Shown here one piece after another: positions 7,162-13,433 of a DNA stretch of 64,000 nt. How positions within the stretch are numbered: position 1 is the stretch's first letter; every line of letters begins with the position of its first letter. The position numbers and the translations under genes are program-made. Location: NCBI GenBank assembly GCA_003116975.1, contig BGKB01000113.1, positions 158,968 through 222,967 on the forward strand. Reading direction: 5' to 3'. The DNA comes from Aurantiochytrium sp. KH105 (taxonomy: Eukaryota; Sar; Bigyra; Thraustochytrida; Thraustochytriidae). The notes under the pieces are model-generated. The model did not search any database. It was not told where the DNA came from and worked only from the letters and a program-made list of their open reading frames with translations.

Positions 7162-8892
7162 ATGGCGCTCATGGGCACGGCGAGGCGGGCGGGAGCTGCG
7201 ACGGCGCGCTGGGCCGCGCGCACGACCGCCCGGCGCGGGGCAGCCACGACGGCAGCGGGGCAGTGGGAGAAGGCGGGCATGGTCCTGGACGGCGACGTGC
7301 AGCCCGGGTCCGAGGGCTTCGCGGCCAACCGCAAGGCCATGCGCGGCGAGGTGGAAAAGCTGCGCGAACTGCTCAAGACCGCGCGAGAGGGCGGCGGACC
7401 CAAGGCGAGGAAAAAGCACATGGACAGAGGCAAGCTCCCCGTGCGGGAGCGTATCGACAAACTTGTGGACGCCGGGTCGCCCTTTCTCGAACTCTCCGCC
7501 CTCGCCGGACACGAGCTCTACGACGGAATCGACGTGCCCGCGGGAAGCATCGTGACGGGCATCGGCCAGGTGCGGGGCGTGCCCTGCATGATCGTCGCGA
7601 ACGACGCCACCGTCAAGGGCGGGACCTATTTTCCCATCACCGTGAAGAAGCACCTGCGCGCGCAAGAGATCGCCATGGAGAATAAGCTCCCGTGCATCTA
7701 CCTTGTCGACAGCGGCGGTGCCTATTTGCCCATGCAGAGCGAGGTCTTCCCGGACGCAGACCACTTTGGCCGCATCTTTTACAATCAAGCGCGCATGTCG
7801 TCCATGGGCATTCCGCAAATCGCCTCCGTCATGGGATCTTGCACGGCCGGCGGTGCTTACGTCCCCGCCATGTGCGATGAGAGCATTATTGTGCGTGGCA
7901 CGGGCACCATCTTTCTGGGCGGCCCGCCCCTTGTGCGCGCCGCCACAGGTGAGATCATTGACGCAGAGTCCCTTGGTGGCGCCGACTTGCACTCGCGTGA
8001 ATCTGGCGTCACGGACCATCTCGCGGAGAACGATCACCACGCGATTGAAATTGCCCGCGACATTGTCGGCAACCTGAATCTTGAGGGCCGCCTCTACAAG
8101 CCGGCTGTCGCCCCGGAAGAGCCTGCTTTCGACGTTAACGAGATGGACGGCATTTTGCCTGCGGACGCCCGCCAGAGCTTTGATATTCGCAAGGTTATCG
8201 CTCGCGTCGTTGATGGCTCGCGCTTTTCCGAGTTCAAGGCCAACTACGGCACCACCCTTGTCTGCGGCTTTGCCAAGATCCAGGGCCAGAATGTGGGCAT
8301 AATTGCCAACAACGGCATTCTCTTTTCCGAATCTGCTCTCAAGGGCGCGCACTTTATCGAACTCTGCTGCCAGCGCCGCACGCCCCTCATCTTTTTGCAA
8401 AACATTACTGGCTTCATGGTTGGCAGCAAGTACGAGGCTGAAGGCATTGCCAAGAACGGCGCCAAGCTCGTGACGGCGGTCTCCTGTGCTAACGTGCCCA
8501 AAATCACTTGCATCATCGGTAACTCCTACGGTGCCGGAAACTACGGCATGTGCGGCCGCGCCTACGGCCCGCGCATGGTCTTCATGTGGCCTAACGCAAA
8601 GATTGCCGTCATGGGTGGCGAGCAGGCAGGAACTGTTTTGGCTCAGGTGGCTCGTGACAACTACGAAAAGGCTGGAAAGGAGCTTGCTCCCGAGGAGGAA
8701 GCTCGCATCAAGGATCCCATCCTTCAGCAATTTGAGCGCGAGTCTCACTCCACGTACTCGTCTGCCCGTCTCTGGGACGACGGCGTCATCGAGCCTGCAC
8801 AGACCCGCAATGTCCTTTCGTATGCACTTCACGCTGTCACCGCGTACGAGGAACCTCAGGCGAACACCAAGTTTGGCGTTTTCCGAATGTGA
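7162..8892 (+). CDS. MCCC2: Methylcrotonoyl-CoA carboxylase beta subunit, mitochondrial
   Basis: This 576-aa carboxyltransferase subunit uses biotin carried by the alpha subunit to carboxylate 3-methylcrotonyl-CoA in leucine breakdown, in the mitochondrial matrix. The first ~35 residues are rich in Ala and Arg with no acidic residues, a typical mitochondrial transit peptide. The crotonase-like carboxyltransferase domain follows. Hallmark segments are the [11 protein letters not shown] motif, [63 protein letters not shown], and the C-terminal [15 protein letters not shown] and [16 protein letters not shown] with SGV, and the absence of a biotin-attachment domain, favour MCC beta over propionyl-CoA carboxylase beta. 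Length matches the family. The alpha subunit is not in this window. An 805-aa open frame lies antisense to this gene and is rejected below. Confidence 0.97.
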
Positions 8893-9410: not shown

Positions 9411-12011
9411 CTACCGCGCTGGCGTTGAATGGTCACAGATAGAGCCAATTTGATAATTCCGGTGCGAAACGGCCGCGCCTGGTTTGTCACTGGCCATTGC
9501 CTGGATGGACCGCAGACGACGATCAATGTAGTCTTCAGGAAATCCTTGCTGCTTGGCACCCTTGATGATGCAGTTGCGGTACTGACGAGATGGCCGGAAC
9601 CGCTTGAAAGGATGCAAATTGTCCTCGCGAGCCGTCAGGGTAGTCACCTTGTAGGTGATGCAAGTCAGCACGCGACCGCTGTCGTCCCTGACATTGACTT
9701 TACGAACTTGAAGCGGACTGCCCTCTCCACTCGCCAGATTGTGCCTGTCGAGCATCTCGCGCTGCGCACGATCCACACGGTACACGACACCGCGGACCTC
9801 GCCGCGATCTGTGGGCACCAGGTCGGCCACACCACTTTTCCACTTTCGCTTCGAATAGTAGGTGTAGTCCATCACAAAGCCATCGAGCTTTGCCGTGCCG
9901 GCCTTGATCGCACTCGTGATTCCGCTGGCATACAAAACATCGAAGAGCATGTCGGGACCATAAGCAAAGTACAAAAAGTGCTCGTCATCATTCTGCAAGA
10001 CCTTGTCGCTCACGCCACCGCGAGCAAAGCGCAATGCCTTGGCCAAATCGCTCTCTGCATTCTCGAAAGAGGCGCCCTGAGGCTGTGCATGCGAACTTGA
10101 CCAAGACGAAGACGAAGATGAAGAGGATTTCTTGCTCGTGGTATCCGTTTGCGCAAATCGCATGGACATTTCGTACTCACGACGGTCCTTCTCGGAAAGC
10201 TCGGCTCCCTGGGCAGAGCCACGCAAATGATCGTGCGCAGCGCTTTCGTCTTCGGAGTCCTCTGAGTCCTCTTCCTGGTCCTGATCGTCCTCCTGGTCTT
10301 CGTCGACAGCGGCGTCTCCTTCATCGTCGGCGTCTGGGCCATCTTCTGCCTCTTCCTCATCTTCGTCAACATCAGCACTGGCTTCATCTTGGTCGCCCTC
10401 GTCTCCGCCTTCATCATCCTCACCTTCGCCCTCTTCCTCTTCGTCGGCGTCCATGGGCTCTTCATCCTCTTCGTCCTCCTCGCCTCGCTCGTCGCCCTCG
10501 ACCTCCTCCTCCTCCTCCTCCTCTTCATCATCCCCAACGGCGTCTTCGCCCTTTTCCTCGTCGCCGAACGAATGGTCCCCTCCCTCGGCGTGGTCATCAT
10601 CGGTGCCATCGCAAAAGGCTGCGGGGCGTCGGAATTCCCCGACAAGATGTTTGGCCAACGCCACAACGCCTTGCGCAACAGACTTTGAGTCGCCCACAAT
10701 ATCCTCTTCTGGTACAAGAATGGCCTTCTTGTCGCTGGACTTGGACTTTTTCACCTTTTTCCCAGGGGGTGGCAGAGGTTTGGCGACGCTCATCGTGTAC
10801 GAAAGGCTGATGCCAAGCTTGTTTTGCGCCCAGCTCATGGCCACGTCGTCGAGGTGCACCTTGCTGTGCTTGCTTGGCTTGCTCTGGGTCACGGCCGAGT
10901 ACGTTTTGGTGCTTCCCATTTTTTCAGCCATGCGTTGGGCCACCTGAGCTTGCTCTGCGAGCGCGCTTCCCTTGATGCATGTTGTGTTTAGTGGACGCGT
11001 CACCAGACCTGCGCAGCACTGCACCGCTACGAAAGCCTCGAGACCGCTTCCCTTGAGTGAGTCGACGTATTCCCGGACAGCCTTGGTTTCGAGCTGAGAA
11101 AAGCTGCCCCAGTCCTCGCGAAAGTCAACTCCCTTGCTCGACGAGTGCCGACGAATAGGTGCTCTGTTCTTCATGTAGTTCCTCGCGTCGTGTGACTTCG
11201 ACTTGGATGTGTATGTCATGCCGTCCGGATTGAGGACGGGAATGACGTGCAGCTTGAGCGAGTTCAACACACTCGTGACGTCCTCATTCAGACCGTACAG
11301 CAGCGTAAACCGGCTCACCAGGTACGAGAGGTACATGGGAACGCTCCATTCGGACCCGTGCTCGGACCCGAGGAGGACAACGTGTCTATCGCCCTTACCC
11401 AGCACATAGACATCGAGACTACGTTTTTCGTAGGTTTGGCCGATGGACTGCGTGCTAATAATGCCCACATCACGATACTTGTCGGCATACGATTGCAAGA
11501 AGGAACGCACTTCGCCTTCCTGCCTGAAACCCTTGAAAAAGTCCGCAAACCCCGTGCGCATCTCGGATTGCCGGGCTTGCTGTTCCGCGCGTAGTTCTGC
11601 GGCCGCGGACTCGTCGTCGTCGTCGCCACTGCTGCTGCCACGCCCCCCGCGCTCGTCGTCGTCATCCTCTTCCTCCTCTTCATCTTCGTCGTCTTCATCG
11701 ACGTTACCACCGCCCTCGTCGCTGTCCTCGTCGCCATTTTCGGCATCGTCATCGCCATCATCAAAGCCGCCAATGGCGCCACCGCTTGCGGACATGCCAA
11801 AGGAGCCGCCTTCATCGGCCATGACAAGATCGCCGTCCATGCCGGCATCGGAAAAGGTCACCGCCGCGAAGAGAAGCAAGGCCACAATGCCTACAAAGTA
11901 CAAGAGACGGGTCTTGCCTGCAGGCGTTGAGGTGTCAAAGTGCTTGCGGACCTTGACGGAGAAGAAGATGAGCACTTGCGTCTTGAAGCGCGAGAAGGCA
12001 TCGCCGGCCAT
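9411..12011 (-). CDS. Type II membrane protein fusing an M14 carboxypeptidase-like and a GGCT-like domain
   Basis: This 866-aa protein has a single TM helix at about residues 36-52, then a Gly/Asp/Glu-rich stalk (70-135). A zinc-carboxypeptidase (M14)-like domain spans about 165-470: LGSEHGSEW carries the zinc motif HxxE (His218, Glu221), followed by LNPDG and a DARNYMKNR segment. A very acidic linker with Ser runs follows, then a gamma-glutamylcyclotransferase-like domain at about 675-840 (LYFAYGPDML, GEVRGVVYRV, QYRNCIIKGAKQQG). By eye, the M14 third zinc ligand (expected in the IHSYSQ-like segment) reads VQCCAG, and the C-terminal catalytic Glu region reads LSYTMSV. In the GGCT part, YGSN reads YGPD and the position of the human catalytic Glu98 reads Asn758. 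Both domains may therefore be pseudoenzymes. The topology suggests the domains are lumenal or extracellular. Confidence 0.85.
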   Translation of the reverse strand: MAGDAFSRFKTQVLIFFSVKVRKHFDTSTPAGKTRLLYFVGIVALLLFAAVTFSDAGMDGDLVMADEGGSFGMSASGGAIGGFDDGDDDAENGDEDSDEGGGNVDEDDEDEEEEEDDDDERGGRGSSSGDDDDESAAAELRAEQQARQSEMRTGFADFFKGFRQEGEVRSFLQSYADKYRDVGIISTQSIGQTYEKRSLDVYVLGKGDRHVVLLGSEHGSEWSVPMYLSYLVSRFTLLYGLNEDVTSVLNSLKLHVIPVLNPDGMTYTSKSKSHDARNYMKNRAPIRRHSSSKGVDFREDWGSFSQLETKAVREYVDSLKGSGLEAFVAVQCCAGLVTRPLNTTCIKGSALAEQAQVAQRMAEKMGSTKTYSAVTQSKPSKHSKVHLDDVAMSWAQNKLGISLSYTMSVAKPLPPPGKKVKKSKSSDKKAILVPEEDIVGDSKSVAQGVVALAKHLVGEFRRPAAFCDGTDDDHAEGGDHSFGDEEKGEDAVGDDEEEEEEEEVEGDERGEEDEEDEEPMDADEEEEGEGEDDEGGDEGDQDEASADVDEDEEEAEDGPDADDEGDAAVDEDQEDDQDQEEDSEDSEDESAAHDHLRGSAQGAELSEKDRREYEMSMRFAQTDTTSKKSSSSSSSSWSSSHAQPQGASFENAESDLAKALRFARGGVSDKVLQNDDEHFLYFAYGPDMLFDVLYASGITSAIKAGTAKLDGFVMDYTYYSKRKWKSGVADLVPTDRGEVRGVVYRVDRAQREMLDRHNLASGEGSPLQVRKVNVRDDSGRVLTCITYKVTTLTAREDNLHPFKRFRPSRQYRNCIIKGAKQQGFPEDYIDRRLRSIQAMASDKPGAAVSHRNYQIGSICDHSTPAR

Positions 12012-12731
12012 TGTGTCTTTACCGACTGCCCTCGCTTTCCTACCCCTTTCCTTCCCCTATCCTGTCCTTTACGCAGGCGCAGAAGCAACAACAACAGCAG
12101 CAGCTGGTCGTGCTTGTCTGCACGGTTGCGCTCGACCTCCTCGCTCGTCCCGGTTGTTGCTTGCTCCGCAGGAGACGACCACGGACCCAGCTGGGCCTGG
12201 GTCTTGCACTGCAGCGAGCTCCGCGAAGTCGAGCAGGAGACTGCGGCGGCGCGTGCGCTGCCGAGCGCCCGCGCGACGCTCCGTCGGCGGCGCGCAGTGA
12301 GCGGCCTGCGATCGAGACCCGGCCGCGAGACTGGATTTGCCTGTCGAGCCTCCTCTCCTCACTCGATCGCCATCCCGACGCGGCTTCTTTCGCCTTTTCA
12401 ACTTGCGAGTCGACGCCGGTCGCACGGCGCACGGAGGAGGCGGTCGCGGAGGCCAGGCAGAGAGAGGCGCGCCGGGGACCCCCTCCCCGGGCGCACACCT
12501 AATTGAGGGTGTGTGCGGGGACACGCGGACCGAGAGCGCCGCGGCGCGGACTGGGACGGGACTGCGACGGGACGGGGCGCGGCACAGCGAGGGCGGCAAA
12601 GCCCGGTGCCTGCGCGTTTCCGCTCCCGCGCGGGAGGTTGCGGGAAGGAGGACGCGGCCTGAGGTGGTCGAGTGAGCAGCTTTCGTGGGTGGGTGAGCGC
12701 GGGCGTCGTTGCTGCGCGAGTGTGCGTTGCG
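12012..12731. other. Divergent intergenic region, M14/GGCT gene / MORN gene
   Basis: GC-rich, with a short CAG/ACA run near 12085-12103. Open frames on both strands lack conserved motifs. No gene is supported. Confidence 0.55.
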
Positions 12732-13433
12732 ATGCCCAAGAAAAGCGGCGTCAAGAGCGCCAAGAAGGCGGCCGAGACCAAGGTCAAGCGAGCTGGGCTC
12801 GTGGAGGGCAAGTTCGATGGTCCAGAGAATGACGACGGCATGCGGCACGGCCCGGGAAGGCTAGACTGGGCTGACGGGGCATGGTTCAAGGGTGAATTTG
12901 ACCACGGTATGCGCAAAGGCCCCGGGATTTACGTCACCGAGCGCGGCAAACACTCGTACGAAGGCGACTGGCGCGACTCCAAGAAACACGGTCGCGGAAC
13001 AGAGACGTGGGCCAATGGCGACAAGTACATTGGTGAGTTCCGTCACAACAAGTTTCACGGAAAGGGCGTCCTGGCGACCCGATCCACGCGCTATGACGGC
13101 GAATGGCGCGAGGGTCTCCGCCATGGGCGCGGTCGCATGGAGTGGCTTTCCTCGGGCGACGTCTACGAGGGCTATTGGGATGCTGGGCGCATGCACGGCC
13201 AAGGGACTTACACGAGTGCCAAGGATGGGGCCGTGTACATGGGCGAGTGGGCAAGGGGTTCGCGAAATGGCAAGGGGGCGCAGACACGCGCAAATGGTGA
13301 AAAGTATGATGGCGAATGGGTCGAGAACCGTCCTCATGGCGAAGGCATTGTTCGCTTTTCGAATGGTCGCTGGCGTCGCGCACGCTTTGAGCAAGGCGAG
13401 CGCAAGTGTTGGCTTGGCGACGAGCGCATCTAA
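12732..13433 (+). CDS. MORN-repeat protein
   Basis: This 233-aa protein begins with a Lys-rich tail (MPKKSGVKSAKK) and is then almost entirely MORN repeats of about 23 residues. Clear units include YEGDWRDSKKHGRGTETWAN, YIGEFRHNKFHGKG, YDGEWREGLRHGRGRMEW, YEGYWDAGRMHGQG, YMGEWARGSRNGKG and YDGEWVENRPHGEG, about eight in total. MORN proteins are rigid beta scaffolds at membranes, flagella or cytoskeletal junctions. No catalytic domain is attached. The open frame extends upstream to a GTG at 12672, but the ATG at 12732 is the first ATG and begins the basic tail. The size is similar to small MORN3-type proteins, though I cannot assign orthology. Confidence 0.9.
   Translation: MPKKSGVKSAKKAAETKVKRAGLVEGKFDGPENDDGMRHGPGRLDWADGAWFKGEFDHGMRKGPGIYVTERGKHSYEGDWRDSKKHGRGTETWANGDKYIGEFRHNKFHGKGVLATRSTRYDGEWREGLRHGRGRMEWLSSGDVYEGYWDAGRMHGQGTYTSAKDGAVYMGEWARGSRNGKGAQTRANGEKYDGEWVENRPHGEGIVRFSNGRWRRARFEQGERKCWLGDERI

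Follow-up and report, generated by a model that had tools for sequence, protein, structure and literature searches.

What protein is made by a gene that joins a carboxypeptidase-like (M14) domain and a gamma-glutamylcyclotransferase-like (GGCT) domain behind a single transmembrane (TM) helix, and is that protein still an enzyme? This question was raised by a 64,000-nucleotide stretch of the Aurantiochytrium sp. KH105 genome (contig BGKB01000113.1, positions 158,968 to 222,967), hereafter called the window. A sequence-only reading of the window had described one continuous 866-codon frame at 9411-12011 without naming its strand, and had proposed that both halves are pseudoenzymes with a binding or sensor role. 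According to the ORF listing and its translation, these limits are exact and the minus strand is the coding one, the frame running from the ATG at 12011 down to 9411 (9411..12011, stop included) and encoding 866 aa. The neighboring ORFs in the window, judged by eye, resemble a carboxylase beta-subunit (7162-8892, plus strand, 576 aa) and a MORN-repeat protein (12672-13433, plus strand), neither with an evident link to the fusion gene. The genome also contains PUFA-synthase-like genes, in one frame of which the PfaA profile scored 930 bits, below its 1010-bit cut-off; this fits a thraustochytrid but is no proof of one.

Searches of the host assembly (76 Mb, 367 contigs) returned matches mostly in near-identical pairs, as expected for two haplotypes, and the second haplotype copy (L002, contig C104) carries the same fusion frame with 862 aa and 99% identity. 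Between the two coding sequences (CDS) we counted 43 synonymous and 11 nonsynonymous differences (dS 0.075, dN 0.0055), while about 42 of the 54 differences would be expected to be nonsynonymous under neutrality (P 4e-19). Amino-acid changes were deficient in every segment, namely the M14 domain (16 synonymous, 2 nonsynonymous; 2/18), the GGCT domain (8 and 1; 1/9) and linker 2 (13 and 7; 7/20, P 1e-5), which indicates that the fusion gene is not decaying. The only haplotype indels within the CDS are of 9 and 3 nt, both in frame and both in linker 2, and those in its flanks are of 1, 2, 3, 4, 5 and 10 nt. An artefact or a dying gene, caused by a lost stop that merged two genes, by misassembly or by an unrecognized intron in an acidic linker, would have in its favor that low-complexity acidic linkers are easily misread, but the frame shared by two haplotype contigs, the coding-type substitutions throughout and the CDS indels in multiples of three argue against a pseudogene, an intron or two merged genes. 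Misassembly, a stop-loss artefact and a linker intron were rejected on these grounds, leaving this explanation very improbable, and the fusion most likely exists as a gene product. A search against NCBIfam gave no match.

The predicted single-pass TM helix (residues 36-54; 11850..11906, minus strand, as are all features below), noticed before from the letters alone, begins at the Kyte-Doolittle peak at residue 36 (best 19-residue mean 2.46) and is the sole hydrophobic stretch of TM strength in the protein. The net charge is +4 in the 25 residues preceding it and -5 in the 25 residues following it. Given the basic N-terminal tail, the one TM helix and the acidic stretch behind it, the positive-inside rule suggests that the helix is a signal anchor and that the protein has type II orientation, its ectodomain facing the lumen of the secretory pathway or the cell exterior. 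Behind the helix, acidic linker 1 (residues 56-150, 11562..11846, net charge -35), the M14 domain (residues 151-470, 10602..11561, net charge +13), acidic linker 2 (residues 471-655, 10047..10601, net charge -77) and the GGCT-fold domain (residues 656-866, 9414..10046, net charge +11) follow one another. The linkers are acidic, as had been claimed, with 42% Asp/Glu in residues 61-150 and 46% in residues 471-655. As domains and stalks are oppositely charged, one may speculate on an electrostatic latch, in which basic domains and acidic stalks would attract each other and might switch the protein between a compact and an extended state.

For the M14 half, Pfam placed Peptidase_M14 at residues 170-411 (E 2.4e-24, 86.9 bits against a gathering score of 21.6), and carboxypeptidases A2 and B were the closest solved sequences in a PDB sequence search. 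The best-ranked fold matches listed for the predicted structure were also carboxypeptidases, in a model of low confidence (pLDDT 54). The fold thus remains recognizable, as had been supposed, and the residues singled out in the sequence-only reading (His218, Glu221, VQCCAG and LSYTMSV here; YGPD and Asn758 in the GGCT half) all read as given. Its catalytic decay, however, goes further than had been listed. At eight active-site positions of carboxypeptidase A (CPA), five intact paralogs encoded elsewhere in this genome keep 8/8, whereas the fusion protein keeps only three (H69, E72 and R127) and is identical in both haplotypes at 8/8. In the paralog alignment, the zinc ligands H69 and E72 are retained in HGSE (residues 218-221, 11349..11360), where Ser stands for R71, and CPA R127 is retained as Arg283 (11163..11165). 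CPA N144-R145 are replaced by Arg298-Glu299 (11115..11120), and the third zinc ligand H196 by Gln331 (11019..11021), so that QCC is read where paralogs A-D have HCC. The catalytic E270 is replaced by Ser408 (10788..10790; paralog alignment and profile). In addition, 22-29 residues beside the active site are missing at the Gly302/Ser303 junction (11103..11108), a loop that is present in all 13 other aligned rows and absent from the query and its second haplotype. The paralog alignment used 15 of the 25 matches, with L030-L039 left out.

A different assignment, Met407 at CPA Glu270, came from a phage-based M14 alignment in which the phage sequences have one residue fewer around this site, and was rejected in favor of Ser408; neither residue is Glu. 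The rows of that alignment had been picked by the register of catalytic residues, from 582 sets after 231 smaller sets. Since the score used Met407, one residue off Ser408, as the Glu270 column, the M14 model is not independent evidence for the register. Viral contigs scanned with A5, A6 and A7 yielded 4 phage M14s, 95 GGCTs (80 kept) and 11 phage M14s, respectively, and scans of viral contigs with A1, L057, L016, A4 and the query GGCT domain found no relative.

Three residues of an active M14 metallocarboxypeptidase, the zinc ligand H196, Arg145 for the substrate carboxylate and the general base Glu270, are thus replaced by Gln331, Glu299 and Ser408, and these replacements make it very probable that the M14 half is a pseudopeptidase. 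Such proteins have been described from animals and fungi in the consulted parts of PMC11266112 and PMC7706225. Table 2 of PMC11266112 gives H69, E72, Q196, R127, N145 and Y270 for CPXM2, and H69, E72, N196, L127, E145 and Y270 for AEBP1. Like the query, both have the M14 fold with H69 and E72 kept and the third ligand, R145 and E270 lost; the query shares Q196 with CPXM2 and E145 with AEBP1. Because these proteins have decayed likewise, the M14 half is an already known kind of pseudopeptidase. For CPXM2 and for AEBP1 in its ACLP form, both secreted proteins, enzyme activity was not detected, and in CPXM1 the sole loss is R145 (PMC11266112). The query differs from CPXM2, CPXM1 and AEBP1, as far as that source describes them, by its TM anchor, its GGCT-fold partner, and its loop deletion, and it has Ser at position 270 where CPXM2 and AEBP1 have Tyr. 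No discoidin domain was found in it by Pfam at E up to 10, a limit at which HMMER's filters already discard most matches weaker than about 0.1. Ecm14, a fungal M14 pseudopeptidase that is secreted and conserved within a lineage (PMC7706225), has H145 and K270 (table in PMC11266112; PMC7706225) but, unlike the query, keeps three zinc ligands and has a cleavable prodomain, with no GGCT domain mentioned in the sections covered. Carboxypeptidase D resembles the query as a membrane-anchored M14 protein with an inactive domain, which stands beside two active ones (PMC11266112, in part), whereas the query has a single decayed domain only. With two zinc ligands kept, metal binding and in principle other chemistry would be possible for the M14 half.

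In the M14 tree rooted on C86/C46, the query sits on a long branch (2.5) among HCC-type genes in a placement that the tree does not settle; support for its join with M14C is 46/26, with long branches. The genome's second M14 pseudoenzyme, L013:4535-6892 (plus strand; C16, with an identical M14 domain in C41), reads K, C, E, R, E, T, K and D at CPA positions 69, 71, 72, 127, 144, 145, 196 and 270. It has a TM-like segment, a PAN_1 match below the cut-off and an acidic linker, and is arranged head to head with an intact M14 gene of the HCC type (L013:1297-3870, minus strand). A single shared loss in the two pseudo-M14 genes was considered and rejected, as the tree does not join them. A further HCC-type M14 gene is partial (L040, C249:53842), its frame opening at X-RNFG with the start cut off.

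The GGCT half belongs to the GGCT/AIG2 family by profile match and fold. Pfam detected AIG2_2 at residues 738-831 (E 4.6e-12) and the GGACT profile at E 2.1e-4 (22.3 bits, slightly below the 22.8 cut-off), human GGCT was the top PDB sequence match (E 2.8e-13), and the best-ranked fold matches listed were GGCT, YkqA, ChaC and GGACT kin. Human GGCT (C7orf24; 3cry, 2pn7, 2rbh, 2i5t), the closest solved relative by sequence and fold, has YGSN and Glu98; the query has YGPD and either Asn758 or Glu763, behind a TM segment. Remote similarity, in fold only, was seen to Paulinella crTPpart2 (9i09), whose N-terminal import signal is unlike the query and whose description, in the parts covered, does not mention cyclotransferases.

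In GGCT enzymes YGSN lines the gamma-glutamyl site. YGPD (residues 684-687, 9951..9962) replaces this motif in the query, and the Ser and Asn of YGSN are present in 55/55 relatives of a 56-row alignment whose rows were partly picked by that motif. This alignment comprises 54 of the 65 distinct viral ORFs together with the window and L057, the one relative found in a scan of genome contigs; 11 ORFs were left out, seven of them longer than 200 aa. As the viral search patterns contained EG and FAYGS, counts of those residues are biased upward. P686, D687, S696 and V769 of the query replace residues conserved in 53-55 of the 55 relatives, and the Tyr following the catalytic Glu is lost, while Tyr684, Gly685 and the conserved GGCT tyrosines Tyr787 (9651..9653) and Tyr811 (9579..9581) are kept. 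A loss of key residues in both halves, as had been claimed, therefore stands for the M14 site and for YGSN and other positions of the GGCT half; for the catalytic Glu it depends on the alignment. The earlier equation of Asn758 (9738..9740) with human Glu98 is reproduced when the C72 paralog is aligned without gaps and in 3/4 human GGCT phmmer alignments, but not in the 56-row alignment, where Glu763 (9723..9725) takes the position if a five-residue insertion is allowed. Depending on the alignment, the catalytic Glu would be either lost (Asn758) or displaced (Glu763), and the GGCT half is altered but perhaps not dead.

Given this ambiguity, the fusion might be only half dead, with the M14 binding module bringing substrate to a GGCT half that is still an active gamma-glutamyl cyclotransferase via the displaced Glu763, a reading that we regard as possible but doubtful. 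Glu763-Gly764 falls in the conserved EG columns both with MAFFT on the 56 rows and with a 69-relative profile, although the profile has a low posterior at the insertion, and the four retained residues Tyr684, Gly685, Tyr787 and Tyr811 would suit an active site that has nevertheless lost the YGSN Ser and Asn and the Tyr after the Glu. In the C72 paralog the residue at the corresponding +5 position is likewise acidic (Asp), but when the query and C72 are aligned without gaps, Asn and Lys, respectively, occupy the place of the Glu. In the predicted structure the helix ends at 760, beyond Asn758, and Glu763 is left in a loop (block mean pLDDT 67) even though the input alignment favored Glu763. A precedent for such a displaced residue is ChaC2, for which two alternative catalytic Glu were proposed, one of them in a flexible loop (PMC7022552, in part).

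The same ChaC2 paper also supports a sensor, in that the E74Q/E83Q double mutant binds glutathione with a KD of 2.7 uM (PMC7022552, in part), which suggests that loss of the acidic residues can turn a GGCT fold into a binder. A dead GGCT pocket might accordingly hold glutathione or gamma-glutamyl peptides in the lumen, and the M14 half and TM helix might relay the redox or nutrient state. The retained Tyr787 and Tyr811 would fit such a pocket, but its YGSN lining has changed to YGPD and no domain that could serve as a cytosolic effector was seen by sequence and Pfam on the short 35-residue N-terminal tail, and we consider this version unlikely.

The C72/C149 paralog (L003:1222-2040, plus strand; L004) has a single GGCT-like domain behind a predicted TM segment, with Lys at the catalytic Glu position and YASD for YGSN; its frame contains no M14 domain and no acidic linkers. 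It shares GVADLV, PSxQYRxCI and GSxCD with the query GGCT domain at 31% identity. The GGCT tree, which included 27 of the 65 distinct viral ORFs, joined the query to C72 with a support of 86/95 that is not conclusive; if it is right, a TM-anchored GGCT-like protein may predate the joining to the M14 part, or the reverse. Among other proteins with related domains, L045/L046 (C35:467422, C9:335798) carry a GGACT-like domain (VFVYGTLK, LDRIEG) in frame with a domain that by eye is SAM-methyltransferase-like (VLEVGCG). On a plasmid of Rhizobium sp. C104 (L059:523-2037, plus strand), a GGCT domain ends a 505-aa protein whose N-terminal 330 residues are without a Pfam match at E 0.01.

Taken together, we favor, at a probability of roughly 0.55, a lumenal or surface binding protein in which two former enzyme folds are carried on polyacidic stalks. 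Such a type II single-pass protein would expose its ectodomain to the secretory lumen or the cell exterior, and would probably bind something instead of cutting it. Its M14 fold, having by its residues lost peptide hydrolysis, would now be a binding module, and the GGCT fold may be a second one. With Arg283 and two of the three zinc ligands kept, it is plausible that the old substrate groove of the M14 module holds peptide or protein C-termini, which would be its most likely ligands. It is reasonable to infer a binding or sensor role by analogy, as precedents have been published in each family. A more elaborate form, rather improbable in our view, would be a charge-latched double pseudoenzyme receptor whose M14 groove grips peptide C-termini and whose GGCT pocket grips gamma-glutamyl groups, so that the two types of end on glutamate-rich or gamma-glutamylated secretory-lumen ligands, possibly including its own Glu-rich stalks, would be read.

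The domain combination itself is well supported and was found nowhere described: searches of the openly licensed literature in one library listed no publication on a TM-M14-GGCT fusion, which is consistent with the earlier statement that no protein with this pairing was known. Changes similar to those of animal pseudopeptidases (Q196 as in CPXM2, E145 as in AEBP1) have arisen again in a protist whose genome retains intact paralogs, and they resemble recurrent steps on the way to a binding function. The pairing of the M14 fold with a TM-anchored GGCT fold prompts the question of whether a GGCT fold could work as a reader of gamma-glutamyl groups, an idea to which the ChaC2 double mutant points.
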